A stretch of 64,000 nucleotides of DNA, taken from NCBI RefSeq assembly GCF_015714725.1, contig NZ_WBKM01000331.1, positions 1-64,000 on the forward strand, in the 5' to 3' direction. The translations under genes were made by a program, and so were the position numbers. The notes beneath the pieces were generated by a model. The model ran no database searches. It worked only from the letters and a program-made list of their open reading frames with translations, and was not told the origin of the DNA. Below are positions 12,187-49,066 of the stretch, piece after piece (positions within the stretch are counted from its first letter, which is position 1; each line of letters opens with the position of its first letter). This DNA is from Nostoc sp. WHI (GTDB lineage Bacteria > Cyanobacteriota > Cyanobacteriia > Cyanobacteriales > Nostocaceae).

Positions 12187-12334
12187 GAGGATGTTTGAAA
12201 AGTCCTCTTGTCGGTATCAAAAATTTTAGATCCCTCTAAATCTCCCGGTAAATTGGGAGACTTTGATTCCGGTTCCCCCCCTCTTTTTAAGGAAGGTTAG
12301 GGGGGATCTAGCGAAACACTTTTCAAACAACCTC
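12187..12334. mobile_element. MITE-like element with GAGGATGTTTGAAAAGT ends
   Basis: The left end GAGGATGTTTGAAAAGT (12187) and right end ACTTTTCAAACAACCTC (to 12334) are inverted repeats about 148 bp apart. The inside contains the common Nostoc block with CCCTCTAAATCTCCC and GGGGGGATCTAGC. It overlaps the 3' end of the multicopper oxidase gene and provides its last codons. A second copy is at 35404-35548 and one isolated end is near 43169. Confidence 0.7.
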
Positions 12335-17939: not shown

Positions 17940-20111
17940 CTACACGAGGGCCAGTTCAACACTGTCATAATGCTCTAAAACAGTAACACCCTCGCAAAAT
18001 GCGCCTTTCTTCAAGAAATCTAATACATTTTCAGGTGCGCCAACCACATAAATATCAATATTGCTACCCAACTTTTGCTTGGTGAAAATGAGATATCGTA
18101 GACCAGCTGCGCTAATACATTTCAAATCGTCTAACAGCAAGACTAAGCGTTTGATTGACTGGGCTGTTGCTTTCTGCAATTCTTCCTCAAGTAGTCCCAA
18201 AGCATTGGCATCAAGTAAACCACTTAAAGATATTTTAGCAACACCTCCGGTTAATTCTAACAAAGTTGCATTGAAAAATACTTGAGCGGGAAGAAGTCTA
18301 ACTCTAACTTTTAGTTCGTCCTGAGTTAATGGTAGTTTGACTGTCAGGTTTTGGGCATCAAAGTCAGAATAAGGCTGCCCATTAATCCAAACTTCGCCAA
18401 TGTGTACACTGCCAGGTGGTAAAATATCGGGCTGAACTCGTAAAATATTATCTTTGAAACCTCCTTGTTTTGGCTTGAAATACAGATCCATCGGCTTTTT
18501 AGTAAGCAATAGATTAGTATAAACACAAGACAAGTACGCCAGTTCAAACGAGTGGTAACCGCTCATGGAGTGACTACCCTTGCCCCTTTCAGTTCCTAGC
18601 AAGTAGGGAACTCCATTAGCCAAAACATTGAAGTAGATACCCCCATCGGCGTAATCGAGGAACCAAGCATTATAAAAAGCTGCTGATTCCCGCGCTAGTT
18701 TTTGGTACTGAGAATTTTCAAGTGAGCCAGCGAGGATCAGGTAGGCTAGTATGGCCTGTTCCTGCTGCCACCATGCTTTGCGATCATGCCAAACAAATCG
18801 GTGTGTCTTTTGGTTTGGTTCTAAAATGCGCTCTACAACATCGTACCACCCTCCCCGCTGTTGGTCGCTGCCAACAGCGGGCATGATGTCTGCAATTTTT
18901 TCAGCCAAGGCAACATACTTCTCTTTTGGTTTTAGGTGGTGCATCCGCATTAGATTCCAAGCAATTTTGAGATTGTGACCCACAACTGCCCGGTTCTGTT
19001 GCCATCCCCATGTTGTATCATGACTCCAATCTTCATGAAAACGTTCTTGAACAAACGGACTAGAGTCGTAATCTGGAAAATGCTTTTCAATTGCGTCAAA
19101 GGTATACTCAAGTAAATCAGCATATTCATTCTTACCACTCGCCAGCCAAAGATTGATTAAGTATGCTGGGGCATGATCACCTACTGAGTTCCAATTCTTT
19201 TTCGCCCGGTTATGACCCAAGGTGCTACTGTAGGGACTGAGATTAATCGGATCAATGTGTGAGAAAAATCCGCCTTTGTCTGTTTTGTCTAGAAAATAGT
19301 TTTTGAACAGATTCATAGTCAATTCGATATCATTCATGATACCTGGGTCGCCCGTCACCCGATAAGTCTGAGTCAAACCAGCTAGTGCATAAATCTGTTC
19401 ATAAGCTGGTATTGCGTCGTAGTCATCCCCAAATTCTGAGGAAAATATTTTTTGCTCTCTACCGTCTGGTTTAACGTCGATTGCGTGATACCAATAGCAA
19501 ATTCCTTCACCCTCATCCAGAAAACGCATGTGATCGCGCAAATATTCAGTGCCTTTTTCCGCAGCTTCTAAGTAACGGTCATCTCCAGTCATTAGGTAGG
19601 CTGTAGCAAAACCGTAAACTAAACGCGAAATCGTGTCGGTTTCTTGACGATTGCTTATTTCTTTCGCACCAACCAAACCTAAATTAGTGCGATATTTCCG
19701 ATAGTCGATTTCCCCATCTTCAAACTGCATTTTTAAGTAAAAATTGGCAAGGCTCCGTACTTGATTGACCCACCAATCCTGCTTTTCAAATGCATACTCA
19801 CTTTCAGTTTTGCCAAGGAATACAATATGTTTAGCTTCAAACTTATGCTGACTATCCTCAGGATAAAAAGTCCCGTACACGTAAAGGTAGCGATCTGAAA
19901 CCAACATTGCTCTCATTTGAAGAGTGCAATCGTAATAAGGTTCACCCAAATTTCGGACTAGTTCAGCATAGGTCGTATCAGACAGGGCTACTTCAAACTC
20001 CCTTCCATCGGTCGTTTTAAGATTGAATGTCCCAAAAGCTCCATTTTGAGAATTAAAGTTTGTAACATACCCAGCGATTAAATCTGAGAATGGGAAAGTC
20101 ACTGTATTCAT
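17940..20111 (-). CDS. AGE-family epimerase/isomerase fused to a STAS domain
   Basis: Of 723 residues, the first 100 or so form an unassigned beta-rich domain. The central part (about 115-560) is an (alpha/alpha)6-barrel of the N-acylglucosamine 2-epimerase/mannose isomerase family: FATAYLMTGDDRYLEAA, AYEQIYALAGLTQTYRVTGD, AVVGHNLKIAWNLMRMH and WHDRKAWWQQEQAILAYLI. The last 100 residues are a STAS domain (KISLSGLLDANALGLLEEEL, then LVLLLDDLKCISAAGLRYLI), the fold of anti-sigma-factor antagonists; the usual phospho-serine position reads SAAG. I use the ATG at 20111, which has AGGAG eight bases upstream; the longer frame contains a non-coding Nostoc repeat. It precedes nothing but sits next to glgX in the same direction, which suggests a role in carbohydrate use. 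Confidence 0.87.
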   Translation of the reverse strand: MNTVTFPFSDLIAGYVTNFNSQNGAFGTFNLKTTDGREFEVALSDTTYAELVRNLGEPYYDCTLQMRAMLVSDRYLYVYGTFYPEDSQHKFEAKHIVFLGKTESEYAFEKQDWWVNQVRSLANFYLKMQFEDGEIDYRKYRTNLGLVGAKEISNRQETDTISRLVYGFATAYLMTGDDRYLEAAEKGTEYLRDHMRFLDEGEGICYWYHAIDVKPDGREQKIFSSEFGDDYDAIPAYEQIYALAGLTQTYRVTGDPGIMNDIELTMNLFKNYFLDKTDKGGFFSHIDPINLSPYSSTLGHNRAKKNWNSVGDHAPAYLINLWLASGKNEYADLLEYTFDAIEKHFPDYDSSPFVQERFHEDWSHDTTWGWQQNRAVVGHNLKIAWNLMRMHHLKPKEKYVALAEKIADIMPAVGSDQQRGGWYDVVERILEPNQKTHRFVWHDRKAWWQQEQAILAYLILAGSLENSQYQKLARESAAFYNAWFLDYADGGIYFNVLANGVPYLLGTERGKGSHSMSGYHSFELAYLSCVYTNLLLTKKPMDLYFKPKQGGFKDNILRVQPDILPPGSVHIGEVWINGQPYSDFDAQNLTVKLPLTQDELKVRVRLLPAQVFFNATLLELTGGVAKISLSGLLDANALGLLEEELQKATAQSIKRLVLLLDDLKCISAAGLRYLIFTKQKLGSNIDIYVVGAPENVLDFLKKGAFCEGVTVLEHYDSVELALV

Positions 20112-20349
20112 TGAATTGTCTCCTAAAATGTAATGTCGATGACCAAAGCCTTTCGGGGCAAGTGTCAGGGTGTAGGCGAAAGAACTAGCCTTGAAGGATA
20201 TTGAATAGACCTCTTGCAAAAGTCCTTCTTTTCGCTTTTTTCTTTGCGCCTTTGCGTGAGACAAAAAATTATTTATGCAAGAGGTATAATATAAGCTCCT
20301 CAATTTAATGATGGAAAATCAAGGAGATTTTTAGGGGACTAATAAATTT

Positions 20350-20531: not shown

Positions 20532-22649
20532 CTATTTGGAAATGAGAACAACGATGCTACGACCTTGAACTAAGCAGAAATCCTCTGGAATTAAAGTCTC
20601 TTGCCCCGATTCCACAATATCCATCGGAGAAGGTTGAGCAGTATCCATGACTTTGTACCATTTCCTAGCTGCAAGAGGAGGAATTTCAAATTTTAGAGTA
20701 TCCCAGTACATATTGAGCATGATGTGAATATCTGATGCTCCTTTAAAGCCTGCTAATGTAAAAGCAAGAATTCTGCCATGAGCCTCGTTCCAAGCTGGTC
20801 TAAACAAATGTAAGCCATGCCAAGAAATGTCTGCCAAACCTCGCTCATTAACTTCGCCGTTGAAGAAGTGGCGGCGGTGTAATGCGTCATGGCAATAGCA
20901 TTTACGGAAATCAATTATCAGTTTGAAAAACCTGTATATATCTGCATTCTTCTCCACAAGATTCCAATCAAACCAGCTGATTTCGTTATCTTGGCAGTAA
21001 GCATTGTTATTGCCATTTTGAGTACGTCTAATTTCATCACCAGATGTAATCATCGGCACACCCTGAGACAGGAAAAGAATAGCTGTAAAATTCTTAATTT
21101 GTCGCCGCCGCAAAGCATCAATTTCGGAATTATTAGTTTCTCCTTCAGCACCACAATTCCAACTCAAATTGTCATTTATTCCATCCCGACTGCCCTCGCC
21201 ATTGGCTTCATTGTGCTTGTTGTTGTAAGAAACTAAGTCATTGAGAGTAAACCCATCGTGGCAGGTAATAAAGTTAACGCTGTTAATTGGTAAGTGTCCG
21301 CTTGCTTGGTAAAGATCAGCACTTCCAGAAAGACGCCTAGCAACTGCGCCTACAAGTCCTGAATCTCCCTTGATAAAGCGTCGAATGTCATCTCGGAAGC
21401 GTCCGTTCCATTCCGCCCAACGATATCCTGGAAAGTAGCCAATCTGATACAATCCAGCAGCATCCCATGCTTCAGCAATAATTTTTGTCTCCGCAAGGAC
21501 TTCCGATGTTTCAATTTGCCAAACTACAGGCGGATGAACCATCGGGTTTCCGTTTTGGTCACGGGATAAGATAGAGGCTTCATCAAACCGGAAGCCATCA
21601 ACGTGCATCTCTTGCACCCAAAACTCTAGGCAATCAACAATTAACTTCTGGACTAAGGGATGGTTGCAGTTAATTGTGTTCCCACACCCTGAGTAATCCA
21701 TGTAGTACTGTTTGTCAAACGGCACAAGGTGATAGAATATACTATTAAAGAACCCTTTAAAGTTAATAGTTGGGCCTTCATGGTTTCCTTCACCAGTGTG
21801 GTTAAAGACTACATCTAAGATGACCTCAATTCCTGCTTTATGCAAGGCTTTTACCATATCCCGAAACTCTGTAATTGGGTTTTTCTCACTGGGAGAAGCA
21901 CAATATGAAGTTTCTGGGGCAAAAAAGCTGTGTGGATTATATCCCCAATAATCTTTCAGTTGCTTACCGTTGACTTCTCGAAGAACTTCCGTTTCATCAA
22001 AGTCAAATACTGGTAACAATTCAACAGATGTGATCCCTAATTCTTGCAGATAAGGAATCTTTTCGATAACTCCAGAAAAAGTACCAGGATTTTTGCAACC
22101 AGAAGAAGGTGATTTAGTAAATCCACGAACGTGTAACTCATAAATAATGGTTTCATTCATGGGTCGGTTAATGGGGCGATCGCCTTCCCAGTCATAATCT
22201 GATATGTCTATGACTACACTACGCATTGAAGTAGCCAAGTTATCTTTCGACCCTAAAGCATCAGTGCGCTTCCATAGCGCAGTACTGTTTCCCTTTGAGT
22301 AAGGATCAATCAGTACTTTATTTTTGTTAAAACGGTGTCCTTTTCCATGTAAATCTTGAGGGCCATCAATGCGATAAGCATAAGCAGCACCAGCTTTTAA
22401 ACCTCTGATATAGATATGCCACAAGAAGAACGTTTTGTTGAGCTTTGGGTCTAACTGAATGATTTCTATGGGTTCTGAGTCATTAGGTGTCTCAAACAAC
22501 AACAATTCGACAGATGTGGCATGTTCAGAAAAGATTGAAAAGTTGACTCCATGTTTGTCGGGCTTGGCACCTAAAGGATATGTACGTCCCAATTCTACTT
22601 GGTAGTTTGTTGTTATTTCAGCTTGATATTGAAGTTGTGTTGTAATCAT
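20532..22649 (-). CDS. glgX: Glycogen debranching enzyme GlgX (isoamylase type)
   Basis: A GH13 isoamylase-type enzyme that cuts alpha-1,6 branches in glycogen. It has an N-terminal CBM48 region (GRTYPLGAKPDKHGVNFSIF) and the four GH13 motifs: DVVFNHT, GFRFDEAS (nucleophile Asp), IAEAWD (acid Glu) and FITCHDGFTL. CQDNEISWFDW is typical of GlgX. Length 705 aa is normal. It follows the AGE-STAS gene's upstream region in the same direction, separated by a MITE. Role: mobilising storage glycogen into glucose phosphates that feed the pentose-phosphate enzymes found elsewhere in the window (inference). Confidence 0.95.
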   Translation of the reverse strand: MITTQLQYQAEITTNYQVELGRTYPLGAKPDKHGVNFSIFSEHATSVELLLFETPNDSEPIEIIQLDPKLNKTFFLWHIYIRGLKAGAAYAYRIDGPQDLHGKGHRFNKNKVLIDPYSKGNSTALWKRTDALGSKDNLATSMRSVVIDISDYDWEGDRPINRPMNETIIYELHVRGFTKSPSSGCKNPGTFSGVIEKIPYLQELGITSVELLPVFDFDETEVLREVNGKQLKDYWGYNPHSFFAPETSYCASPSEKNPITEFRDMVKALHKAGIEVILDVVFNHTGEGNHEGPTINFKGFFNSIFYHLVPFDKQYYMDYSGCGNTINCNHPLVQKLIVDCLEFWVQEMHVDGFRFDEASILSRDQNGNPMVHPPVVWQIETSEVLAETKIIAEAWDAAGLYQIGYFPGYRWAEWNGRFRDDIRRFIKGDSGLVGAVARRLSGSADLYQASGHLPINSVNFITCHDGFTLNDLVSYNNKHNEANGEGSRDGINDNLSWNCGAEGETNNSEIDALRRRQIKNFTAILFLSQGVPMITSGDEIRRTQNGNNNAYCQDNEISWFDWNLVEKNADIYRFFKLIIDFRKCYCHDALHRRHFFNGEVNERGLADISWHGLHLFRPAWNEAHGRILAFTLAGFKGASDIHIMLNMYWDTLKFEIPPLAARKWYKVMDTAQPSPMDIVESGQETLIPEDFCLVQGRSIVVLISK

Positions 22650-22819: not shown

Positions 22820-23446
22820 TTACCTGGTAGTTACCTGTAATCTCTGCTCATTAATTGCCTTTAAGAAAATTTCCATGAACTCGGCAACTACTTCAGGATG
22901 TTTTGCTGTGATCAGATTGCCATCAATGTGTAAATTTTTAGTTCCATCTCCATCAAAAATAATGATGCCTCCAGCATTTTGTACGTCACAAAGAATGTTA
23001 TGTGCACAAGTAACTTCACGATTCTTCAGTAGTTCTGGGTCAGCGCAAAGCAGCCAAAGGCTATGACAGATAGTTCCAATCTTTAATTTGCCAGCATCCA
23101 TAGCCTTGACAGCTTTTCGGAGAAATCTGACAGCAGGAGATTGATTGGGTTGACCTTGTTTAGGATACTTTTCATAGCGAAGACGATCCATGGCGTATGC
23201 ACCGATGAGAATAATAGCTTCATAATCGGTAGGTTCAATATCATTTACTTCTACTGTAACAGTCACTTCTTCTATTAAATTAATTCCCTTAAATGTCAGT
23301 TTATCTTGATTCCAAAGATGAGAAATGTACTCTATCTCGTATCCATTATCCGGGAAAAAACTATTAAATGCTCGAAATTCAATTTCGTCAAAATGCTCTT
23401 CGATTAGCACACCTATTTTACCCTGATTCTTAGCATTAACTACCAT
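22820..23446 (-). CDS. DJ-1/PfpI-family protein
   Basis: A 208-aa protein of the DJ-1/PfpI class I glutamine-amidotransferase-like fold. IGVLIEEHFDEIEF is the first strand with the conserved acidic residue, and KIGTICHSLWLL holds the nucleophile-elbow cysteine; ITAKHPEVVAEFM is near the C terminus. The family includes glyoxalase III, deglycase-like and stress proteins. AAGGAGACAC precedes the ATG. It is 72 bp downstream of the CMD gene in the same direction, so they probably form an operon. Confidence 0.87.
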   Translation of the reverse strand: MVVNAKNQGKIGVLIEEHFDEIEFRAFNSFFPDNGYEIEYISHLWNQDKLTFKGINLIEEVTVTVEVNDIEPTDYEAIILIGAYAMDRLRYEKYPKQGQPNQSPAVRFLRKAVKAMDAGKLKIGTICHSLWLLCADPELLKNREVTCAHNILCDVQNAGGIIIFDGDGTKNLHIDGNLITAKHPEVVAEFMEIFLKAINEQRLQVTTR

Positions 23447-23518: not shown

Positions 23519-23911
23519 CTATTCATTTGAATTGAGAATATCATTCAGAGTACCAAAGCACCCCGCGGCCTTATTAAATCCTGCATAAACGCACATGAAC
23601 AAAAGAAGCTCCTCTATTTCTGCACGAGTAGCGCCTTGTTGCATAGCCATATTTACATGTGTAGCAAAAGGACTGCCAGCCCCAACTTGATCTTGATTGA
23701 CAACATCAATAGCAATTGTTATTAAAGCCTTGGTTTTTTGGTCAATTAACGGAAGACCCCATGCTTCACCTGCTACTCGAGTACAAAAGTCCCCAAATTT
23801 CGGATTGATACTTTTTAAGGCATCTTGAAGTTTTACATTATCTAAAACAGCATTTTTATATACTGTTGTATTGGCATTTTGCTTCAGTGTTGGATAATTA
23901 GGCTGACTCAT
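23519..23911 (-). CDS. Carboxymuconolactone-decarboxylase-family protein
   Basis: A 130-residue CMD/AhpD-like protein. The core reads FCTRVAGEAWGLPLIDQKTKALITIAID, then HVNMAMQQGATRAEIEELLLFMCVYAGFNKAAGCFG, the typical HxxxA...GAT..EI.E pattern. It is closely like the first 120 residues of the six-domain fusion at 36034-39183, so the two share recent ancestry. TGGAGAAAAGAT stands before the ATG at 23911; the upstream extension is not needed. Members act in aromatic catabolism or peroxide defence; it lacks the CxxC of AhpD, so a lyase- or isomerase-like role fits better. Confidence 0.87.
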   Translation of the reverse strand: MSQPNYPTLKQNANTTVYKNAVLDNVKLQDALKSINPKFGDFCTRVAGEAWGLPLIDQKTKALITIAIDVVNQDQVGAGSPFATHVNMAMQQGATRAEIEELLLFMCVYAGFNKAAGCFGTLNDILNSNE

Positions 23912-25938
23912 ATCTTTTCTCCACTTTTTACATAGATTTAGCTTTTCCGCCACCAAAGTTGTTTTGGAATAAAAGCTATTAAGTGCTTTGCTTGTTTAAT
24001 AAAACAGAAAACTTTGATGAATGATTTGCTTTAGCTTTCCATCGATTGTGACAGTGCAGCCGTTACAATGATTATTTGCACTGGATTTTGATAAATCTAG
24101 AAAACTTGTTTCTCTATGTATCTTTAACAATTTAGGAAAGTATTAGCCAGCTAAAATCTTTGAGTTAAGACCAAATTTAAGCTTTTATACTATTACGGTG
24201 GGAGTTTTGTAAAAATTCTCTTATTAAAGCGGCTATTACGGAAAAATAATAACTGACTTATAACTACGCTCTTTTTAACAGACTAATATTTTTGGACTTC
24301 AAGTCCTTTGTACACACATGTTGGACTGTTTTGGAAAGTGATTTCCAGACTGGTCAATTATTTTTGCAATACATCTAATCAATCAACCTCTTGTATAAAT
24401 TAAAAATAATAAGCCCACCCCATAAGTAAGGAGGGTTGGGGGTGGGGTATTAGGGACTTTTGCAAAAAGTCTAATTATGAATCGACTACAAAGTACCTTC
24501 CAACTGCGAAATAGTCTAGACATCTTAATTTGCTAATTCGCTTCAAAGCAAGAAAAGAAGTTATTTAGCAAAATTTTATGGGTAGCTTGGAATTGTGCTT
24601 CCCCAGTTTCGGAAGCAGTGAATTGATTTAACAGCCAGGATTGGAGAAAAAAATAAAAATATTGGCGTTTCTGAACAAGAGTATGAATTTAGTCTCACAC
24701 AAAGACGTAAAAGTAGTTGCACAGAGAAGTCTGAGCGCCGATTTCCCCGGACAGAACTTCGGTGGTCAAGAAATTAAAGAGGAGTTGAGTGACAGTAGAG
24801 ATAAAGCAAGTGTTTCAGCGCTTTTCTTATGCAGTTAAGTTGTTAAGTCTATCCTTAAGTTATCGATGTTCATTTTACAAAACTTTGTAGGGCTGCAAGA
24901 CTCAGTATCAATAAACTTCAGTTCTGTAGGACAATCTATGAAAAGTATTACCTCATAACATACTGGAACTTCAGCCTTTAAAAAGGGCATCCGATTGCTA
25001 TATTAGCATTAAATAATACTAACTCTTCGAGGGCAGTTTTAGATTTATACACTTCGCAGCTTTAAGTTTCTTGTTTCTTAACCTGTTTAACTAGATTGAC
25101 GGGTAACTTGAAGTATTTTATTTCATGCTAGAGGCTTTACCGTCACCATCGCCCCAACCCCCATCAAATAAAAAATGATTTTTTGATTCGCATTTTTAAA
25201 TTTATCTTAAGAAAGGGATGGTGATCTTAACCTAGTCAATAAAGGGTTGAGCGGCCTGAACTAAAGGTCGTTTCCAGCACAGATACCCACTAAAAACCAT
25301 AGACTTGCTTCGCTGTAATCGGCAAAATTACAAAAAATGTCAATACATGTACACTCTTTATCCAAAAATTGTCAGGGCATGATAATATGACTTTGTTGTT
25401 GCAAATAAGAAAGAAAGTTTACCTAAACTTTCAGAAATATTTCTGTAGCTAAGCTTTTTCTAGTTAGCCTACAAACGTTTTTGTCAGTATATGCAATTCA
25501 GTTATAGACCACGATAACTGATAAAGCATTTTATTGCGCTGTGAAATATAGAGCCTCCAAAGTTTTTTTGCTTGAAGCAGATATACGTAAATCGCTTCTG
25601 AGAGGTTTGAAAAGATATATTGGAACGAGCTATTAGTTTGTTCCTTTCTGCAATATAACTTTTAAGTATTGGGAAAATTTTGTTGTGATTAAAATCTCCT
25701 GCTGTGTCATAAAAGTATCATAATGAGTATCAAAGTTCTTTTGAGCTTTAGTACAAAAGGACTTTTTAACTTTTAAACTCAAGACCTTTAAAAAGTACTT
25801 TAGTACTTTTTAAAGGTCTTCAGGAACTACGCGCCAAGAATGCTTTTAGGTGAATAAATCTTTTGCAACAACTGGATTATTGCCACAAGTGACTTTTTCT
25901 CATTCTGTCTGTAGTAACCGCAACTGAGGAAACGAACC
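23912..25938. other. Two-kilobase region without a recognised gene
   Basis: The region is AT-rich with many stops in all frames. A 65-codon plus-strand frame at 24641-24838 starts with TTG and is not convincing. A perfect hairpin is found at 25781-25820. The rest shows no repeat ends or gene scraps that I recognise; it may be decayed sequence or a long regulatory region. Confidence 0.5.
25781..25820. terminator. Perfect 18-bp hairpin upstream of the diiron-like gene
   Basis: AAGACCTTTAAAAAGTAC (25781-25798) and its exact complement (25803-25820) flank a four-base loop. It is 118 bp before the next plus-strand gene. It might be a terminator or part of that gene's leader. Confidence 0.6.
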
Positions 25939-27341: not shown

Positions 27342-27363
27342 AATATCAGGGCTATTCAATTTC

Positions 27364-34985: not shown

Positions 34986-35370
34986 TCAGACGACAACCCT
35001 CGATTTATCGTTGCCAAGCATAAGATTGAGTATGTTGTCCTGTGTTTGATTGGTTGCACCCAGGTTTGCGATAAGTTCCGCTACTGTGGAAGTTCTTTGT
35101 CCAGCTAGGGTTAACTTACCGTTATCGACAAAAGTGTAAGTACCCTCTTCTAAAAAACTAGCAAATTGCTTTATATACTTACCCTGATCTTTCATTACAG
35201 AAGCATACGGTTCTGAATTAAAGAAAGTTTCCATGTCTATCTTATTTTTAAAGGCAATTTCAAATATAGCTATAGAATGTTTGCCAATCTATTTCTTCTC
35301 GCTTTTTAAGAAGTATATATAATACTGTTGTCCCATCTTTGTCATGTGCTGAGTAATTGACCTTTGCCAT
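34986..35370 (-). pseudogene. EthD-domain protein with a large internal deletion
   Basis: An ATG at 35370 with TAGGAG upstream starts MAKVNYSAHDKDGTTVLYIL, the N terminus of the EthD family found in the two large neighbours. After about 36 residues the frame ends, and another frame continues with FEIAFKNKIDMETFFNSEPY up to LAGQRTSTVAELIANLGATN, which matches the C-terminal part of the second EthD domain in those neighbours. About two hundred residues are missing between the two parts, and the joint is near 35250-35265. It is the remains of a third paralogue. The promoter-side end and ribosome site are still intact. Confidence 0.8.
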
Positions 35371-36033: not shown

Positions 36034-39000
36034 TCAGTAAAGAAAACCATCGCTAGTTATTGACCACTTAGGTGGGTTAGCTACTGACCATTTAGGGGCA
36101 AATCCAGTTTGTACCCTTTGTCTTGCTTCAGGATGTTCAGCGAAGTGCTTCTTCATAGTGTTGGGCGGCATTAGTCTTTTACCTTCACTGACAGTAAACA
36201 CAGAGGCGGAATTAGGGACAGTAATTGTAGGATCAAATACAGGATTCACATCCATAAAAATCCGCAGTTCTGAGAATTTATCTCCTTCTACGCGGAAGAT
36301 ATCGAAACAAGGAAGTGTAATAACTGAGCCATCTTTACGCCAGTAGGTAACATCCATTTCCACAAATACTATGTCACCAACTTCCCACATCATTTTGATG
36401 TCGTGGTAGACAGCAGAGATACCATTAAAGAAAGCGTCCCCAGATTTCTTCATTGCTGCTTTATCAAAACACACATCAAAATTGCCAAACTGATAAACTG
36501 GTGTGTCGGTAAAAAAGCTTATGAATCCTTCCGAATCAAACGCTTCACCTCTGGAGAACAGCTGCTTAACTAAGTCTGTTGTTGCACCTGGAAATTTTTC
36601 GGAAGTAGATTGGCTGGCATTTTTACCATTAAAAACTGTAGTTTGTAATCTATTTTCTTGCTGTTCGGCAACAGTTTTTAAGTTCAGAACAACCTGCTTA
36701 ACTGATTGGGCAATATTTTCTTGAATTTTTTGAGCAACCTTTCGACCCTCCTGATTGTAAGGTTCCCAGTCCAAGGTATAACTAATTACCAGAGGTTCAT
36801 GAGGATTGTTACTAGCAGGACGAACAACTGCATTAACTGCCTGACCAATGAATAAAGGATTATTGACTAAGGTGTGTCGGATTTCCCCAGTTTTTTCGTT
36901 CCAAGTTATTTTTTCCTCAACCGTGATATTGAGAACTTTGATTTCACGCAGTACGTCATTGTTATATCTCTCCAGAATTTTGTAATTGTGAGCTTCTGGA
37001 TTGTAGCGTCCTGGGTTTTCAATTGTGTCCAGTAACACATTGCAAACAGTTGATAATGAAGCATTTACAGGACTGCTAAATGTGGCATAAACTCTTTCCG
37101 ATATTCCTATCTGTTGAGAATCTTTAGAATCTAAAACAGCGAAATGTGTATTGTTTACCATGTTATATTCCTCCTGTGCTTTAGTAAAATGTCCTTTAAC
37201 TGTGCGAGTAGCTTGGTTGAATTCTAATTGTTCTCCGTTTGGCCCTTTACAGTAGAACAATGCCCAACCTTCTAGTTCACCAAAGTCTTCCTCTGGTTGA
37301 TCTGCATTTAATGAATCTGGCTCGTGCCAAAATTTAGAAGAATTATATTTGAGGGCTACTTTTCTTCTTTCTTCTTCAGATTTGACTTTAATTACGCGAT
37401 TACAAACAACCTTTTCCATGCCGCGTCTATGGCATTCTTCTTCAAATATTTTGGCGAAAACATTTAAATCCACATCATCTTTTACGTGAAAAGAGAGGTG
37501 CATGGCATTCACATGACCAATGTGGAAAGAAATGCGATCAACGGCTGAATTATGGGAATTTTGTATTGCCGCATCTCGAAAATAAATCAGTTCAACGCAG
37601 GTATTACCAAAGGAGATGAATTTAATATCTAAGGCTTCTTTAGCATCCCTAAGACTGGGGATACCTAAAGTTTTGGGGTTAACTCCTTGGGTTAATGCAT
37701 CTAACTCCTCTTTTTGAAAGAGAGTGTTTTGCATTGTATCTCCCATGAGATTATTTTCTATAACAACTATCTGCCCTCCTAACACCTCTGTGTAAAATTC
37801 GAGGGATTTTTCCATATCTTGAACTGTAACCCCGACGTGTTGCACTCCTTGGAGATAATGACCTAACCCAGGCTTAACAGCTTCTTTACCGTTTAGTAGA
37901 GAAACTATGTCTAACTTTAATTGATTGGTTGCTCCTACTTTCACAATTAAATCTGCAACATTAGAACTCCACTGACCTGCTAAGGTCAATTTGCCGTTAT
38001 ATACAAAGGTGTAAGCACTGCGTTCTCCCAATGGTAAAATCTGCTTCACATATTTAGCTAAGTCTTTGAAAGCAGCAGCGTACTCTGGGGAGGCAAAGAA
38101 TGCTTTCATTTCTAGAGGATTGTCAAACGCAATTTCAAACGCCGCTTGATATTGCTTCTCTAGTGGTTCGGAATGGGACACCCCAGCAACATCTGGGCGG
38201 GAATTGTCTGTTTCATCAAACAAATGCAGTCGGAACTTTAGGACGTTATCACTCTGGACAATCGCTGCGGCAAAGCGCTCTGTCAAATGTTGGTGAAAGG
38301 CTGCTAGATTAACGCTATCAGCTTTCTTGAGCATTACATGGAATTTCAACCCATCTACGTTACCGTTTGGTTCTCCCGTGGGGATACCATCAATGAAGGT
38401 TCGGGAATTGCCATAGTTGGTGTTGTAGCCGACTGCTTTCCTGAATAAGTTATGTTCGTCAGCCATAAGAGGATCTGACGATTGAAAAAAGGCTTGGCGA
38501 TCGCTTTCTGTCTCAAAGGTTAGTTCTGCAATGCCATCAAATTGATCTTCTGTCTGATATGTGTAATTAATCCCTGGAATGCTTGGCCACAAACTACCCT
38601 CATGATTATGAGTCAGGTGAAATTGCCAGTATTGATGCTGACCTGGTAATCGGGCGCAGAGAGGCCCATGTACATTTCTCCAGTAGTCGTCAAAAAGCTC
38701 TAAGGAAATACCTTTTCTTTTCCACAGGAGAACATAGAAGGCTACTTTGCCACTTTGATCTCGGATTGCATAATTGGCTTTTTTTGTTGCTGCTTTCATT
38801 GCAGATATCCTTGATTCAACACTACTCTGGTTAAAAATCTCATTTAGCGTGCCGAAGCAGGCTGCGACCTTATTAAATCCTGCGTAAACGCACATAAATA
38901 AAAGAAGTTCTGTGATTTCCTTACGAGTAGCTCCTTGTTTAAGAGCCATATTTACATGTACTGTAAAAGGATTGCCGGGGCCTTTGTGATTCTGATTAGC

Positions 39001-39183
39001 AACATCAACTGCGATCGCAATTAGCGCCTTAGTCTTTTGATCAATTAATGGTAGACCCCATGCTTTACCAGCTACACGAGTAACAAAGTCACCAAACTTC
39101 GAGTTGAGGTCTTTTAAACCTGTTTGCAGTTCTAAGTCATCCAAAACTGCATTTTTGTATTTCCGATTTTCATCTACTGCCAT
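36034..39183 (-). CDS. Six-domain fusion: CMD, EthD, EthD, VOC, SRPBCC, SnoaL
   Basis: The 1049-aa protein is a chain of small-molecule enzyme folds. Residues 1-125: carboxymuconolactone-decarboxylase-like domain, close to the gene at 23519. About 138-430: two EthD-type ferredoxin-like domains (YVLLWKRKGISLELFDDYW; later KFHVMLKKAD and KQYQAAFEIAF). About 440-665: VOC/glyoxalase domain (GVQHVGVTVQDMEKSLEFYT, ending CKGPNGEQLEFNQ). About 674-845: SRPBCC domain, probably AtaL-like. About 860-1000: SnoaL/NTF2-like domain (GEAFDSEGFISFFTDTPVYQ). These folds often cyclise, isomerise or split aromatic and quinone-like compounds. The last few residues come from a decayed VOC-gene tail. Next gene upstream is 52 bp away. 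Reaction unknown; domain calls are firm except SRPBCC. Confidence 0.85.
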   Translation of the reverse strand: MAVDENRKYKNAVLDDLELQTGLKDLNSKFGDFVTRVAGKAWGLPLIDQKTKALIAIAVDVANQNHKGPGNPFTVHVNMALKQGATRKEITELLLFMCVYAGFNKVAACFGTLNEIFNQSSVESRISAMKAATKKANYAIRDQSGKVAFYVLLWKRKGISLELFDDYWRNVHGPLCARLPGQHQYWQFHLTHNHEGSLWPSIPGINYTYQTEDQFDGIAELTFETESDRQAFFQSSDPLMADEHNLFRKAVGYNTNYGNSRTFIDGIPTGEPNGNVDGLKFHVMLKKADSVNLAAFHQHLTERFAAAIVQSDNVLKFRLHLFDETDNSRPDVAGVSHSEPLEKQYQAAFEIAFDNPLEMKAFFASPEYAAAFKDLAKYVKQILPLGERSAYTFVYNGKLTLAGQWSSNVADLIVKVGATNQLKLDIVSLLNGKEAVKPGLGHYLQGVQHVGVTVQDMEKSLEFYTEVLGGQIVVIENNLMGDTMQNTLFQKEELDALTQGVNPKTLGIPSLRDAKEALDIKFISFGNTCVELIYFRDAAIQNSHNSAVDRISFHIGHVNAMHLSFHVKDDVDLNVFAKIFEEECHRRGMEKVVCNRVIKVKSEEERRKVALKYNSSKFWHEPDSLNADQPEEDFGELEGWALFYCKGPNGEQLEFNQATRTVKGHFTKAQEEYNMVNNTHFAVLDSKDSQQIGISERVYATFSSPVNASLSTVCNVLLDTIENPGRYNPEAHNYKILERYNNDVLREIKVLNITVEEKITWNEKTGEIRHTLVNNPLFIGQAVNAVVRPASNNPHEPLVISYTLDWEPYNQEGRKVAQKIQENIAQSVKQVVLNLKTVAEQQENRLQTTVFNGKNASQSTSEKFPGATTDLVKQLFSRGEAFDSEGFISFFTDTPVYQFGNFDVCFDKAAMKKSGDAFFNGISAVYHDIKMMWEVGDIVFVEMDVTYWRKDGSVITLPCFDIFRVEGDKFSELRIFMDVNPVFDPTITVPNSASVFTVSEGKRLMPPNTMKKHFAEHPEARQRVQTGFAPKWSVANPPKWSITSDGFLY

Positions 39184-39235: not shown

Positions 39236-40777
39236 TTAGGCAGTTGTGATCAACTTCAGTAGTCCACCGGGAGCAAAAACATCGCGATAGAAGGTCAATT
39301 GTTCTGTTTTGAGATAGCATCCACCTCTATGCCCGCGTCGAATCCAGGTAACATTTCCCTTGGCGAATGTTTCGTTGGTTTCATCATCTACACACTTCCA
39401 TTCAAAGAAGGTAACTTCACCATGAAACATGACGATTGGCCAGCACATAGTCACACCTGGTTGGGCAATTAATGCCCACCAATGTTGCTCACGCTCTTTT
39501 TGTTGCTCCAAACCTTGATAGGGGCCATCCTGACAGAAATAAACCAAATCATCGCGATATTCGCCAGTTAATATATCGCCTCGTCCCTGCCTTAATGCCT
39601 CGCAATGAGTTGGCCACCATTCTCTGTTCTCTTGTTCAATCTGTTCCAGAGTATAATCCAGACCAATTTGTGGCAATGTCCTTTGTTTTATGGCGATAAA
39701 ATTCTCGGCATCTTCTATGAGTTTTTTCGCTACATAAGGAGTTACGAGTCCTGGTCGAGAATAATCTGCTGATAAATCTTTGTAGTAGTTAGTTCGTTTA
39801 TTAATAAATGTGCTGGTAGTATTTTGGGAACCATTCGAGTGATCATTTGAGTTGGAGATAAGTTTCTGTTCTAACATAAGACTAACTACGTCCTCCTTAA
39901 GTTGATTAGTTGCGCCAATATTTGCAATCAGTTCTGCTACTGTGGAACCTCGCTGACCCGCCAGAGTCATTTTGCCGTCGTAGACAAAGGTGTAAGCCGT
40001 TCGCTCAGGAAATGGTAAAAGTCGCTGGACATATTTAGCTTGGTCTTTAATAGCAGCAGCGTATTCTTTGGAAGCAAAGAATGTTTCCATTTCCAGAGGA
40101 TTGGTAAAAGCAATTTCAAAGGCAGCTTGATACTGTTTCTCTGACGATTCGTAATGAGATACTCCAGCCGCATCTGGGCGAGAGTTATCTACTTGCTCAA
40201 ACAAATGCAGTCGAAACTTGAGAACAGAATCACTCTGGATAACAGCTGGTGCAAAGTTATCTGTCATATATCGGCGAAAAGCTTCTACACTCACGGCATC
40301 GGATTTCTTCACCATGACGTGAAACTTAATTACACTTAGTTTGCCGTTAGGATCTCCTGCGGGAATACTATCAATATAGGTTTGAGAATTACCAAAACTA
40401 GTGTTGTAGCCAATTGCTTTGCTGAATATGTTATGCTCATCATCCATGAGGATGGTAGCAGATTGGAACCATATATCACGTTCGGCTTCTGTTTCAAAGG
40501 TTAATTCGGCAATCCCGTTAAACTGGTCTTCTTGTGGACATATGTAGTCAATGCCCCTCATAGTTGGCCACAAACCACCTTCATTTTCAGACAGGTGAAA
40601 TTGCCAATATTGGTGTTGACTTGGTAGTCGTGCACAGACTGGGCCATGAACGTCTCTCCAATAGTTATCAAAAAGGTCTAGAGAAATTCCTTTGCGTTTC
40701 CACAAGAGAACGTAGAAGGATACTTTGCCTTTTTGATCGCGGATTGTATAATTGGATTTTCTAATTGTTGCTATCAT
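39236..40777 (-). CDS. EthD-EthD-SnoaL fusion protein
   Basis: From the ATG at 40777 (AAAGGAAAGTAGCA before it) the protein has 513 residues. Two EthD-type domains (about 1-310) are closely like those in the adjacent six-domain fusion: YVLLWKRKGISLDLFDNYW, KFHVMVKKSD, QAAFEIAFTNPLEMETFFAS. A linker of about 60 residues leads to a SnoaL/NTF2-like C-terminal domain (from about 370: YRDDLVYFCQDGPYQG, VMFHGEVTFFEWKCVDDETN). EthD proteins are small dimeric enzymes or accessory factors in ether and polyketide metabolism; fused pairs mimic a dimer. The substrate is unknown. It shares an operon with the fusion gene 52 bp downstream. Confidence 0.83.
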   Translation of the reverse strand: MIATIRKSNYTIRDQKGKVSFYVLLWKRKGISLDLFDNYWRDVHGPVCARLPSQHQYWQFHLSENEGGLWPTMRGIDYICPQEDQFNGIAELTFETEAERDIWFQSATILMDDEHNIFSKAIGYNTSFGNSQTYIDSIPAGDPNGKLSVIKFHVMVKKSDAVSVEAFRRYMTDNFAPAVIQSDSVLKFRLHLFEQVDNSRPDAAGVSHYESSEKQYQAAFEIAFTNPLEMETFFASKEYAAAIKDQAKYVQRLLPFPERTAYTFVYDGKMTLAGQRGSTVAELIANIGATNQLKEDVVSLMLEQKLISNSNDHSNGSQNTTSTFINKRTNYYKDLSADYSRPGLVTPYVAKKLIEDAENFIAIKQRTLPQIGLDYTLEQIEQENREWWPTHCEALRQGRGDILTGEYRDDLVYFCQDGPYQGLEQQKEREQHWWALIAQPGVTMCWPIVMFHGEVTFFEWKCVDDETNETFAKGNVTWIRRGHRGGCYLKTEQLTFYRDVFAPGGLLKLITTA

Positions 40778-41113
40778 TGCTACTTTCCTTTGTCCACATT
40801 TACTGTCTTGACTAAGGCATTTGTTGAGTTTAGCGATAGCGATCGCCCTATTCATGACAGGTTAAACCCCCGATCCCTAAAACCTCAGTGAGAGCCTTGC
40901 TCTCCCGCCGGTCAATAAATTGCGATTTAAGAGCTAAAGTGTTTTTCAACGCACTGAAATTAAAGAAATTAAGATGGATTGGTGCTGATGGGTTACACGC
41001 ACTGTCAATTCCTCAACACTGTCATATAATTCGCTACTACACAATCAAAATCCTTTTACAATCCATGTAAGTGGGTTTCGACTGTGTAAAAGCGATTTCT
41101 AGTCAGGAGCATC
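40778..41113. other. Intergenic region with repeat remains
   Basis: The segment 40900-41060 resembles, in inverted order, parts of the element at 45362-45550 (GTGCGTT, CAATTTATTG-type blocks), so it is probably a decayed copy. No gene seen. Confidence 0.4.
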
Positions 41114-41297: not shown

Positions 41298-41936
41298 TTA
41301 TCCTTTTGAGTTAATCTTTTCCCGTAAAATACGGGCGGCTTCGGCAGGAGACTTAGCACTGTAGATGGCAGCACCAACTGCTGCTACATCGGCTCCTGCT
41401 GCTTCTACTTCCTGAATTGTTTTCTCATTAATGCCCCCGGCAGCCGAAAGAGAAATTGAGACTGCGCTTCGTATAGCCGTGAGATCATCTACCGTAGAAG
41501 CGCACAGATGATGAGCCTGTTCGTCCAGTCCGCAGTGTAGTTCCAGGTAATTAACTCCTAGCTTTTCTAAGCTGCGCGCACGTGACACACGATCTGAAAC
41601 AGAAATCATATCAGCAGTGACGTACTTTCCGTATTTACGAGCAGCAGTAACAGCACCCTCAATCGTGCTGTCATTCGATACAGCTAGGACTGTTGTGAAG
41701 TCCGCTCCTGCTTTGAATGCCATCTCAGCCTCTAAGCTTCCAGCGTCCATCGTCTTCATATCTGCAAAAATCAGCTTATCGGGAAAATATTGTTTGAAAG
41801 TTGCCAAAACCTTCAGTCCCTCTTGCTTAATAAGAGGAGTGCCTGCTTCAATTATATCGACATAAGGAGAAACTTCTTTGAGTAAGTTCATTGCCTGCTC
41901 TAATGACAACAAATCTACAGAAACTTGTAACTTCAT
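41298..41936 (-). CDS. hxlA: 3-hexulose-6-phosphate synthase
   Basis: HPS joins formaldehyde and ribulose 5-phosphate to give 3-hexulose 6-phosphate, the first step of the ribulose-monophosphate path. The 212-aa protein has the OMP-decarboxylase-type barrel: VSVDLLSLEQAM, IEAGTPLIKQEG, FADMKTMDAG (the Asp-Lys-Asp metal/phosphate set), YLELHCGLDEQA and AAGGINEKTIQEV with GAAIYSAKSP as phosphate loops. Related 3-keto-gulonate-6-phosphate decarboxylases have a similar frame, but the adjacent upstream PHI gene (63 bp away) favours HPS. GAGGTTGTTTT stands before the ATG. TGTACTTTAGTACA (41964-41977) lies in the leader. Confidence 0.9.
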   Translation of the reverse strand: MKLQVSVDLLSLEQAMNLLKEVSPYVDIIEAGTPLIKQEGLKVLATFKQYFPDKLIFADMKTMDAGSLEAEMAFKAGADFTTVLAVSNDSTIEGAVTAARKYGKYVTADMISVSDRVSRARSLEKLGVNYLELHCGLDEQAHHLCASTVDDLTAIRSAVSISLSAAGGINEKTIQEVEAAGADVAAVGAAIYSAKSPAEAARILREKINSKG

Positions 41937-41999: not shown

Positions 42000-42596
42000 T
42001 TACTCAAGATTGGCGTGTAAAGACCAAAGAGTTTCAGAACTTTTGCTTGAATTCTGAGACATAATATGAAACAAAGCATCAAATATTAACAAGGATGATT
42101 GCTCGAATAAAGACCCACTAAATTGTTGTGAATGTTGATGGCTATGATCTTGTTTAGCTGCCGCTTCAATTATGATTAGAAAATCTGCAATTTTAGCTAA
42201 AGGAGAGTCTGTTTGGGTTGTAATACTAGCAACATATGCACCAATTTTTTTTGCTTTGTGAGCAATTCCTAAAACATATTCTGTCGTACCCGAACCAGAA
42301 AAATTAATCAGTAAATCCCCTTGCTGAATTGCCGGAGTAATTGTTTCACCCACCACATAGACCTGACGGCCTAAATGCATTAACCGCATAGCAAACATCC
42401 GAATCACTAAGCCACTGCGACCTTCACCAATGACAAAGATTCTTTGGGCATTCATAATTGCTTGCCCAAGCTGGTCAATTGCTGGGTAGCTGATTTTTTC
42501 TAAAACGCGTTTGTTCTCGATTAACACTAATTCAATGGCTTTACCAAGACCTACCTTGATGTCTGTGTTAGTGACAGTTTGAGCAATATTAGCCAT
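42000..42596 (-). CDS. hxlB: 6-phospho-3-hexuloisomerase
   Basis: PHI converts 3-hexulose 6-phosphate to fructose 6-phosphate. The 198-aa protein is one SIS domain: IFVIGEGRSGLVIRMFAMRLMHLG, VYVVGETITPAIQQGDLLINFSGSGTTEYV, and the C-terminal SSLLIFDALFHIM. Length and the GEGRSGLV and SGSGTT phosphate loops fit PHI. A His/Gln-rich insert (KQDHSHQHSQQF) near 150 is somewhat unusual. It directly precedes the HPS gene in the same direction, as in other HPS/PHI operons. GAGAGGAAAAG stands before the ATG. Confidence 0.9.
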   Translation of the reverse strand: MANIAQTVTNTDIKVGLGKAIELVLIENKRVLEKISYPAIDQLGQAIMNAQRIFVIGEGRSGLVIRMFAMRLMHLGRQVYVVGETITPAIQQGDLLINFSGSGTTEYVLGIAHKAKKIGAYVASITTQTDSPLAKIADFLIIIEAAAKQDHSHQHSQQFSGSLFEQSSLLIFDALFHIMSQNSSKSSETLWSLHANLE

Positions 42597-43517: not shown

Positions 43518-44360
43518 TTATATAGCTCCCTCTAGCAGTTCTAGTACATTCCCATCCGGATCAGTAAAGCAAACGATAGTAGCATCTGTTCCAGGCAATT
43601 TTTGAGGCTCAGACAAGAAATTTACACTCTGTGTCTTTAAATTTTCGTATACCTGATCGATGTTGCTGGTACGAAGACAGATGCGAGCCACTCCAGTATG
43701 GTTTAGATTAGGATAAGGTTGTCCTTCTGTTTTCGGGTCAAGAAATTCAACGAGGTCAATTCGAGTTGCTTTTGGATCATTTTCTAATATCAAGTGGACT
43801 CCTCGAAGTTTTGCATATGGTAATCCAAATGCCTTAGCCATAGCTGTGCTACTCATCCCTTTGCTGAAGTCAGCTATAACCTTAAAGCCAAGCATTTCGT
43901 AGAACGGCAGTGAGCGATCAAGATCAGTGCAATTCACGTTGCAGTGGAAGATTCCTTCAATGATTGTCAAAGCTGCAACCCCAGCTTCGGCAACTTCTTG
44001 GTCTTGCTCACCAGGACCACCGCTTACACCAATAGCTCCAACAATTGTACCGTTTTGCTTGAGGGGAATCCCACCGGCAAAAATCATCACTTTGCCATTG
44101 TTAGATGCATGAATCCCAAAAAATTCTCCACCACATTGACTGTGTGCTGCTAATTCTTTGGTTGAGATATTGAAGGCGCGAGCAGTATAAGCCTTCTTAA
44201 TGGCAATGTCAACACTGCCAATCCAGGCTCCATCCATACGCACATGAGTAATTAAGTTTGCCCCATGATCTACCACTGCTATATTCATTGGCTGACCAAT
44301 TTCAATAGCTTTTTGTTCCGCAGAAGCAACTATTTTTTGTGCATCTTTGAGTGTAAGCAT
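43518..44360 (-). CDS. GlcG/HbpS-like domain fused to a VOC domain
   Basis: Residues 1-135 are a GlcG/HbpS (haem-degrading-like, DUF336) domain: AVVDHGANLITHVRMDGAWIGSVDIAIKKAYTA in sections, GGIPLKQNGTIVGAIGVSGG and DQEVAEAGVAAL. Residues about 140-280 are a glyoxalase/VOC domain (CNVNCTDLDRSLPFYEMLGF, then HTGVARICLRTSNIDQVYE and FTDPDGNVLELLEG). It has no signal peptide, unlike HbpS of Streptomyces. VOC enzymes use a metal to isomerise, cleave or detoxify small molecules. The fusion stands in the SDR/EthD/HPS array and likely acts in the same pathway; the substrate is unknown. Confidence 0.85.
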   Translation of the reverse strand: MLTLKDAQKIVASAEQKAIEIGQPMNIAVVDHGANLITHVRMDGAWIGSVDIAIKKAYTARAFNISTKELAAHSQCGGEFFGIHASNNGKVMIFAGGIPLKQNGTIVGAIGVSGGPGEQDQEVAEAGVAALTIIEGIFHCNVNCTDLDRSLPFYEMLGFKVIADFSKGMSSTAMAKAFGLPYAKLRGVHLILENDPKATRIDLVEFLDPKTEGQPYPNLNHTGVARICLRTSNIDQVYENLKTQSVNFLSEPQKLPGTDATIVCFTDPDGNVLELLEGAI

Positions 44361-46657: not shown

Positions 46658-47320
46658 TTATACCTTAACAAGCGACCATTTAGACGATTCTTCAGACCAT
46701 TTGGGGACAAATCCTGCTGCTACACGTTGTTTTCCTTCATCATGTTCGTTGAAGTACTTTTTCATGATGCCTGGTGGAGTTATTTTATGTCCTTGGCTTA
46801 TAGTCAATACAGAAGATGTGCTAGAAACGGGAATGGTCTGGTTAGATACAGGATTCGCATCCATAAAAATCCGCAATTCTGAGAATTTGTCGCCCTCTAA
46901 CCTGAAAATATCGCAGCAAGGAAGTGTGATTACAGAGCCATCCTTGCGCCAGTAAATCACATCCATTTCAACGAATACTACCTCACCAACTTCCCACGTC
47001 ATCTTAATTTCGTGGTATAAAGCAGAAACCTGATTGAAAAATGCATCCACAGATTGCTTGATGGTAGCCTTAGTAAAACATGGCGCATAGTTGCCAAACT
47101 GATACACTGGGGTATCGGTAAAGAATTCAATAAATCCTTCCGAGTCAAATGCTTCGCCTCTAGCAAATAAGCGCGTTACAATCTCTGACGCTGTTCCTGG
47201 TAGTCTCTGTGAAATATTTCTTTTCTGGTCTGAAGTTTCACTAAAAACGCTATTATTTGAAACTGAGAGTTCGGACTCGATATTATGTTTATCGTTGGAG
47301 AGAGAAAGTTGAACGCCCAT
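46658..47320 (-). CDS. SnoaL/NTF2-like protein, paralogue of the fusion's C-terminal domain
   Basis: The 220-aa protein is closely like the C-terminal domain of the six-domain fusion: both read ARGEAFDSEGF or SRGEAFDSEGF, FFTDTPVYQFGN, YHEIKMTWEVG or YHDIKMMWEVG, VIYWRKDGSVITLPC and KFSELRIFMD. Even the C-terminal tails (TPPGIMKKYF, FVPKWS) match. The first 60 residues are low in order and unique. SnoaL-type domains bind or cyclise polyketide- or steroid-like molecules. It seems to be a stand-alone copy that arose by duplication. Confidence 0.85.
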   Translation of the reverse strand: MGVQLSLSNDKHNIESELSVSNNSVFSETSDQKRNISQRLPGTASEIVTRLFARGEAFDSEGFIEFFTDTPVYQFGNYAPCFTKATIKQSVDAFFNQVSALYHEIKMTWEVGEVVFVEMDVIYWRKDGSVITLPCCDIFRLEGDKFSELRIFMDANPVSNQTIPVSSTSSVLTISQGHKITPPGIMKKYFNEHDEGKQRVAAGFVPKWSEESSKWSLVKV

Positions 47321-48640: not shown

Positions 48641-49066
48641 ATGAAAGTTTCAATGTCAAATTTAGCGGTTAAATCAACTAAAACACAAATAATTAAAACT
48701 CTGTTTGAAGCACTGGAATCTGTACCAAATTCTCCAATCGAGTCCTCAGAAAAATATGTTACTTTCCTCACCGAAAGCGCAAAATTTAGGTTTGGAAACT
48801 TAGATACTTTAGTTGGACACAAAGCCATCAAGGACTCTTTAGTTGATTTTTGCCAACAAGTAAAGAGTATATATCACGACATCAAGGAAGAATGGGAGAT
48901 TGGAGATGTGGTATTCCTAAAGATGGAAGTTACTTACTACCGTCTTGATGGCATTGCCGTGACACTTCCTGTGATGGATTTCATTCAATTTAAAGGTGAC
49001 TTAATCCAAGAACTGCAAATTTTCATGGACATTAATCCAGTATTTGCCTCATTGGGTAAAGGCTAA
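48641..49066 (+). CDS. SnoaL/NTF2-like protein
   Basis: The 141-aa protein is a single SnoaL-like domain related to, but clearly diverged from, the SnoaL parts of the minus-strand array: KYVTFLTESAKFRFGN, IYHDIKEEWEIGDVVFLKMEVTYYRLDGIAVTLPVMD and QELQIFMDINPVF. The latter ending matches FMDVNPVF in the fusion protein. It is transcribed away from that array from a shared intergenic region, so it may be co-regulated. It may also start at the second ATG (MSNLA, residue 5). Confidence 0.8.
   Translation: MKVSMSNLAVKSTKTQIIKTLFEALESVPNSPIESSEKYVTFLTESAKFRFGNLDTLVGHKAIKDSLVDFCQQVKSIYHDIKEEWEIGDVVFLKMEVTYYRLDGIAVTLPVMDFIQFKGDLIQELQIFMDINPVFASLGKG

Follow-up and report, generated by a model that had tools for sequence, protein, structure and literature searches.

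The stretch of DNA analysed here (the window) is a 64,000-nucleotide segment of contig NZ_WBKM01000331.1 of Nostoc sp. WHI, and the feature under study is one long open reading frame (ORF) on its minus strand, 36034..39183, which starts with ATG, has no internal stops and encodes a predicted protein of 1049 amino acids (aa). The initial annotation had described six folds in this single frame, and the description was borne out by the open frame together with Pfam searches and fold comparison, the CMD and VOC parts being assigned without fold comparison. The parts follow one another in the order CMD-EthD-EthD-VOC-SRPBCC-SnoaL and are located as follows.

38794..39183, minus strand: CMD part, residues 1-130 (PF02627, helical model, 70% identity to the gene at 23519)
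38389..38766, minus strand: first EthD part, residues 140-265 (PF07110, strands and helices alternating in the model)
37978..38370, minus strand: second EthD part, residues 272-402 (PF07110, strands and helices alternating, predicted local distance difference test score (pLDDT) of 83-89 in the first half)
37114..37866, minus strand: VOC/glyoxalase part, residues 440-690 (PF00903 and residue conservation)
36625..37098, minus strand: SRPBCC part, residues 696-853, aromatase/cyclase-like fold (fold alignment, PF08982 below cut-off)
36229..36594, minus strand: SnoaL/NTF2-like part, residues 864-985 (PF12680 and fold alignment)

The CMD, both EthD, VOC and SnoaL_2 domains passed their Pfam cut-offs, and the fifth part, matched to AtaL, stayed below. 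The CMD part scored 49 bits with PF02627 (cut-off 23; residues 30-111) and was all-helical in the model, and its assignment is backed by sequence and helical secondary structure. It shares this family with PcaC but reached only 41.2 bits with TIGR02425, for which the cut-off is 155.7, and is not PcaC. The EthD parts gave 65.2 bits with PF07110 against a cut-off of 22 (residues 157-246, two stretches), and each unit separately exceeded it (38446-38715 and 38047-38313). The EthD pair is further backed by the predicted secondary structure, by the tandem-barrel structure 3f44 at Foldseek rank 31 (246 columns, in a row that does not state the model range) and by the model of the neighbouring gene described below; the window's EthD parts had no sequence match to any solved EthD protein. 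The VOC part scored 34.3 bits with PF00903 (cut-off 20.6; residues 447-540), and H449, E531, H562 and E654, which we take to be candidate metal ligands, were conserved in 18 of 18 rows.

The structure of the chain was predicted with AlphaFold2 from a 19-row alignment, giving a mean pLDDT of 55.5 with residues 387-695 left unmodelled; the fold lists were filled by one or two domains, and missing matches for CMD, VOC and the ECT domain introduced below are uninformative. By this route the SRPBCC and SnoaL folds were recovered by fold comparison and the EthD and CMD parts at the level of secondary structure, and the VOC part is assigned from sequence only. In the VIA alignment of the model, the SRPBCC part matched the aromatase/cyclases WhiE ORFVI, ZhuI and TcmN with Z scores of 16.2-16.9, best for WhiE ORFVI (Z 16.9, 2.2 Å over 151 residues). 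It shares their fold but only 13-16% of residue identity, and no polyketide synthase was recognised in the window. The same part (714-832) resembles AtaL weakly, staying under the curated PF08982 cut-off of 27 with 18.8 bits, or 23.9 bits when cut out; two plasmid relatives of it are annotated as AtaL-like protein. The SnoaL part scored 31.8 and 34.7 bits with PF12680 (SnoaL_2, residues 875-972; cut-off 27), and residues 864-998 matched limonene epoxide hydrolases and ketosteroid isomerases with Z scores of 15.8-17.6 in the rows shown (VIA alignment), best for a limonene epoxide hydrolase (Z 17.6, 1.8 Å over 120 residues).

The distribution of the fusion was examined in 52 neighbourhoods (51 and the window), all selected because they match the fusion or ECT, and ECT is left out of the architecture table. 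A scan of genome contigs gave 21 loci, nine of which were left out of the 52-locus set: seven (L030, L035, L040, L041, L043, L046 and L047) sit on contigs equal in length to ones already included, and the other two are L032 and L033. L094, L140, L141 and L143-L148 are likewise outside the set. Some part of the fusion was matched in 33 of 148 genomes (own included), 12 of which have one match of at least 580 residues; in a sample of the phylum, 27 of 386 genomes match at all and 5 have a match of at least 580 residues. A single protein joins the EthD pair to at least one of VOC, SRPBCC and SnoaL at 30 of the 52 loci, and the order of parts is unchanged in all 30. The carriers include Nostoc, Komarekiella, Mastigocoleus, Phormidium, Argonema and two Pleurocapsales. 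The commonest form is CMD-EthD-EthD-VOC-SRPBCC-SnoaL-SnoaL (8 of 30; in one of these, G017, CMD is a piece of 25 residues), with L032 and L033 as further seven-part cases outside the set. It is followed by the same chain lacking SRPBCC, CMD-EthD-EthD-VOC-SnoaL-SnoaL (6), by EthD-EthD-VOC-SRPBCC-SnoaL (4), CMD-EthD-EthD-VOC-SnoaL (3), EthD-EthD-SnoaL-SnoaL (3) and EthD-EthD-SRPBCC-SnoaL (2), and by three other forms found once each; the exact six-part form was seen once, in the window itself. A separate observation concerns a Crinalium plasmid cluster (L051 6286-22195), which holds a relative (42%) of the SRPBCC part alongside a type I polyketide synthase and an aromatase/cyclase.

The fusion shares the window with a group of genes known from the icfG operon of Synechocystis sp. 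PCC 6803, which serves carbon regulation. These are the following.

23519..23956, minus strand: stand-alone CMD
22820..23446, minus strand: DJ-1/PfpI protein
20532..22649, minus strand: GlgX glycogen debranching enzyme (TIGR02100, 713.9 bits against 640.9)
17940..20303, minus strand: AGE-type epimerase fused to a STAS domain

Thus CMD, DJ-1, AGE, STAS and GlgX lie together at 17940-23956, which is icfG-type gene content. The operon in Synechocystis comprises slr1852-1862, and the content of slr1855-1861 is given in excerpts of PMC8670252 and PMC12329169; slr1853 is annotated as CMD in a portion of PMC3564720, and the ketose-3-epimerase-like Sll1305 belongs to an operon listed together with slr1852-1862 in an excerpt of PMC8670252. 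The same five components stand together there, and the order in the 3.8-Mb genome G122 (ECT-CMD-DJ1-AGE-STAS-GlgX-STAS-PP2C-kinase) fits slr1855-1861 as these excerpts describe it; from gene order, slr1852 would be the ECT protein. Divergent genes in G122 encode an ABM protein, two unassigned proteins, a psicose-3-epimerase-like enzyme that scores below its model cut-off, a hydrolase, a deacetylase-type protein and an HbpS protein. The window differs from the operon in adding the EthD-pair gene and the fusion, in having STAS fused to AGE, and in that a histidine kinase and a response regulator adjoin it. Neither the IcfG PP2C phosphatase nor an Rsb-type kinase gave a tblastn match in the 64 kb (E value up to 0.01), and because of this the window cluster is regarded as an icfG derivative and not as a member.

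Over the 52 loci, AGE, DJ-1 and stand-alone CMD were each present at 42 (the CMD count being partly selected for, as loci were chosen by fusion or ECT match), GlgX at 39, EthD-pair genes at 37, STAS at 26, stand-alone ECT at 25, PP2C at 18 and the kinase at 12; AGE, DJ-1 and GlgX were all present at 39. Several genomes carry the parts of the fusion as separate genes. In L129, from a 2.6-Mb genome, there are individual genes for VOC, the EthD pair, PP2C, ECT, CMD, kinase, STAS, GlgX, STAS, AGE and DJ-1, the first few of them interspersed with genes for an outer-membrane efflux protein and an alpha-amylase; neither SRPBCC nor SnoaL was seen in this neighbourhood. In L082/L083 the EthD pair, CMD, VOC, two SnoaL-like genes, one unassigned gene, ECT and DJ-1 are consecutive. 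The core genes occur in an icfG-type operon also in genomes of 2.1-3.8 Mb, whose hosts, judging from genome size, are probably unicellular.

The gene next to the fusion carries a second EthD pair, and a short frame is probably what is left of a third EthD gene.

39236..40855, minus strand: upstream gene of 539 aa, EthD pair (63% identity to the fusion's pair) plus ECT domain
39239-39808, minus strand: ECT, a highly conserved 190-aa domain within this gene
34986..35234, minus strand: 82-aa frame, probable remnant of a third EthD gene

The stop of the upstream gene is separated from the fused ORF by 52 bases. Its model had a mean pLDDT of 40.3 overall and 82-85 in parts of the second EthD unit, which matched 4-methylmuconolactone methylisomerase (Z 12.0, 3.2 Å over 109 residues) and also came near the OAC, CTB10 and WhiE-ORFI folds. 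The unit has the fold of these and other EthD/Dabb barrels, but shares 16% identity, and the window has two tandem units per chain. ECT was found in 25 of 386 genomes of the phylum sample and in 40 of 148 relatives; identity to the window copy is 66-94% in most genomes, and a second group at 56-64% is found mostly in genomes of the same genus. The G008 member of this second group stands apart from the cluster: it is about 60% identical (L132 9835-17594) and lies next to a WD40 gene and a gene for 280 aa, with relatives also in the window at 25939-31269. Five plasmid records carry ECT, all cyanobacterial, and one Nostoc plasmid shows ECT alone. A metagenome-assembled genome of Ignavibacteria (L048 4393-13850) contains DJ-1, ECT, an EthD pair, CMD, GlgX and AGE, which may be due to transfer or to a mis-binned contig. 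ECT was also considered as an NTF2/SnoaL domain, a reading that found no backing: profile comparison, with few effective sequences, gave nothing, a PDB profile search gave one chance-level hit, and the model of the 539-aa protein was of low quality over this domain.

The likeness of the two EthD pairs was followed in trees and in DNA identity per 20 codons. The pairs of the fusion and the neighbour are same-genome sisters in L038, L042, L036 and L133, and L134 falls within the clade of L133. Their identity reaches 0.98-1.00 in L038, L042, L133 and L134 and 0.95 in L036, and is 0.50-0.82 in the window; behind the EthD stretch it drops to 0.23-0.50 where the alignment continues. From these sequence comparisons gene conversion is likely to lie behind the alike pairs in four or five genomes, and separate recent fusions or duplications are less preferred. 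The CMD part has a different history. The four closest relatives of the window have no CMD in the fusion, and tblastn found stubs before EthD, namely the last 22-24 residues in L009-L011, 42 residues in L018/L041, 28 in G056 and a weak 15-residue match in L028 (E value 0.052). These stubs of 15-42 residues in six CMD-less relatives indicate that the window kept a part which relatives lost, a loss perhaps tolerated since the stand-alone CMD remains. No stub was found by tblastn in six VOC-less shorter forms (G058, G087a, G094, G100, G461 and NIES-3756), in which CMD may never have been present.

Other genes of the window, and a second cluster elsewhere in the genome, are listed next.

12323..14092, minus strand: multicopper oxidase, a neighbour in 8 of 52 loci
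14457..15851, minus strand: cNMP-binding histidine kinase
15872..17572, minus strand: response regulator fused to a thioredoxin-reductase-like enzyme
41298..41936, minus strand: 3-hexulose-6-phosphate synthase, HPS (TIGR03128, 243 bits against 200)
42000..42596, minus strand: 6-phospho-3-hexuloisomerase, PHI (TIGR03127, 235.2 bits against 160)
43518..44360, minus strand: HbpS-like domain fused to a VOC domain
44448-45221, minus strand: SDR gene
45554-46621, minus strand: DUF4432, aldose-epimerase-like, in 8 of 52 loci
46658..47320, minus strand: stand-alone SnoaL paralogue (62% identity)
48641..49066, plus strand: second stand-alone SnoaL paralogue (44% identity)
L122 5620-18000: second icfG-type cluster, own genome (C30)

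The paralogues of single parts that the initial annotation had pointed to in the window thus proved real for CMD at 23519, the EthD pair at 39236 and SnoaL at 46658 and 48641, at the identities given above; the gene at 43518 encodes an HbpS-VOC protein, the VOC of which is absent from the own-genome matches of the fusion. An SDR gene at 47403-47906 is probably truncated (167 aa against 267 aa in two relatives), and an NHL-repeat protein at 50063-51280 exceeds the ScyD/ScyE family cut-off (307.9 against 80). HPS and PHI (41298-42596), together with TAL-PGI (1474.7 bits against 712), 6PGDH (402.1 against 297.2) and G6PDH (666 against 400.6) at 53162-58804, are all over their cut-offs, and on paper, going by these sequence models, the window would encode a complete formaldehyde-oxidising dissimilatory ribulose monophosphate cycle. 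With E values up to 1e-25, five copies of PHI were found, spread over 4 of 148 relatives, and four of the copies lie within 3 kb of ECT; three of these four belong to one cluster type, leaving about two independent cases. HPS occurs at the same threshold in 1 of 148, the own genome only; it is also present in L028, and a 26% match stands beside PHI in L145, from a genome (G033) without an ECT match. On these counts HPS and PHI were rejected as a general component of the system, and the pair looks like a local addition outside the core.

A sister cluster in the own genome (C30), G024 and G069 has PP2C, VOC, ECT, DJ-1, PHI, DJ-1 and AGE, followed by an FAD halogenase-like enzyme and an O-methyltransferase, with STAS and GlgX where the fetched stretch reaches. 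In the own genome the FAD gene covers two frames, of 208 and 269 aa, against 488 aa in G024, and the G069 frame is also longer and single; with NCBIfam models the G069 protein scored 277.7 bits with the halogenase CmlS (cut-off 900) and 193.5 with QhpG (cut-off 240). The Gloeothece ECT neighbourhood has an O-methyltransferase, a KAS III-like protein, a thiamine-diphosphate enzyme, a multicopper oxidase and a halogenase-like protein. Tailoring genes like the O-methyltransferase and halogenase-like genes of the sister cluster point to a small-molecule product.

The families of the assigned parts comprise isomerases, cyclases, decarboxylases and glyoxalases. Because such parts keep their order in relatives or lie there as individual genes side by side, the fusion probably works as a genuine assembly line that makes a small molecule, next to sugar-storage genes. 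The view of the initial annotation that it is an assembled multi-step enzyme is likewise supported by the separate-gene versions (L129, L082/L083), by the constant order and by the closest folds of the fusion and neighbour parts, which belong to proteins with aromatic, polyketide or lactone substrates. With moderate confidence, we propose that it is a genuine cytosolic multi-enzyme, formed from fused icfG-type cluster genes, which handles one unstable polycarbonyl or aromatic intermediate beside glycogen metabolism; the handling of one such intermediate is the most economical reading. All parts would act on it: CMD and EthD may decarboxylate or isomerise, VOC may carry out a metal-dependent isomerisation, SRPBCC may close or aromatise a ring, and SnoaL may remove water or isomerise further. 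Fusion would prevent the escape of a reactive polycarbonyl by diffusion, the neighbour at 39236-40855 may co-assemble with it by means of barrel-forming EthD units, and the substrate would come from carbon freed by glycogen breakdown, as suggested by GlgX, the AGE epimerase and the sugar-phosphate enzymes.

Several observations weigh against this proposal. AGE, DJ-1 and GlgX are all absent at 10 of the 52 loci (Amaz28, Amaz45, G008, G010b, G058, G084a, G084b, G261, G300 and HT58), some of which are cut by the end of the contig or fetched stretch or carry the cluster elsewhere, on a different contig or stretch; G008, G261 and G300, which are not visibly cut, have ECT, and CMD in two of them, without the rest in 20 kb. 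The CMD part is gone from several relatives. In the trees, the fused CMDs require three changes and the fused EthD pairs twelve, and no single origin is shown for this reason; either fusion or gene conversion took place repeatedly or the trees are unreliable, as the CMD tree has few columns and 30 of its 58 inner forks open, and the bootstrap of the EthD tree is not yet settled. No part of the fusion reaches the cut-off of the named-reaction models listed, ECT has no profile match to the SnoaL group (with few effective sequences) and no convincing solved relative, and the fusion of adjacent genes is no proof of channelling.

Among the alternatives, carbonyl damage control is unlikely but fares best. 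The cluster would then clear reactive aldehydes and 1,2-dicarbonyls arising from glycogen and sugar-phosphate turnover, and the fusion would be a broad-range isomerase/decarboxylase. This is consistent with the DJ-1 family, the VOC family and the formaldehyde-fixing HPS/PHI sitting together and with the position of the rare PHI near ECT. A transcript table in an ethanol-stress paper, the excerpt of which gives ratios without the meaning of the columns, also lists slr1853 at 1.6-2.7 and slr1854 at 1.8-2.1 (PMC3564720). However, the scarcity of HPS and the few independent ECT-PHI cases speak against it, the aromatase/cyclase and ketosteroid-isomerase-type folds fit biosynthesis better, and the presence of tailoring genes, as the FAD halogenase-like and O-methyltransferase genes of the sister cluster, weakens it further.

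Pigment biosynthesis follows as a rather improbable alternative, in which the fusion would cyclise and decarboxylate an aromatic polyketide-like precursor and a secreted multicopper oxidase would then couple the product in the sheath. The likeness of the SRPBCC part to the spore-pigment aromatase WhiE ORFVI, that of the neighbour's EthD unit to WhiE-ORFI, CTB10 and OAC, and the SRPBCC relative in the Crinalium polyketide synthase cluster agree with it. In fungi, EthD proteins are decarboxylases or pigment enzymes and act beside laccase in pigment pathways, as excerpted from PMC10890192. Multicopper oxidases recur near the cluster, the 12323 type at 8 and a long type at 6 of the 52 loci, yet most loci show neither type, no polyketide synthase was recognised among the scanned window proteins, and the reading is weakened because the core is present in small genomes. 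The initial annotation had suggested pigment or sunscreen metabolism. Pigment is still conceivable, given the multicopper oxidases, O-methyltransferase, FAD halogenase-like and ScyD/ScyE-family proteins in some cluster versions; sunscreen is not supported, because the core operon is also found in small-genome cyanobacteria, and the neighbours are glycogen and sugar-phosphate enzymes.

A third alternative, that the parts form a ligand-binding scaffold or sensor that binds a metabolite and reports carbon status to a STAS/kinase/phosphatase switch without catalysis, is very unlikely. SRPBCC and NTF2 folds include pure binders and the neighbourhood is icfG-type; in addition, the STAS proteins of the Synechocystis operon are described in part of PMC12329169 as kinase targets, and one as a phosphatase target. 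Against this, the candidate VOC ligands are invariant and the window search recovered neither PP2C nor an Rsb-type kinase. Lastly, an assembly error or random read-through merging separate genes, the objection raised in the initial annotation, would fit a fragmented source assembly (390 contigs, 6.64% contamination) and found no other support, and it is refuted to a practically negligible chance because co-linear fusions exist in many other genomes, some of those in few or single contigs.

Returning to the multi-enzyme proposal, a wider form of it can be drawn only as a doubtful sketch, in which the icfG cluster, in addition to its regulators, would encode the biosynthesis of a cyanobacterial metabolite linked to carbon status, the fusion would form one mixed complex with its neighbour through their gene-converted EthD pairs, and the unfused small-genome operon would be the simplest and the seven-part chain the most elaborate version. 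A search of the open-licence literature found no paper on this fusion. The fusion suggests which enzymes belong together, and the pathway thereby becomes testable in Synechocystis.

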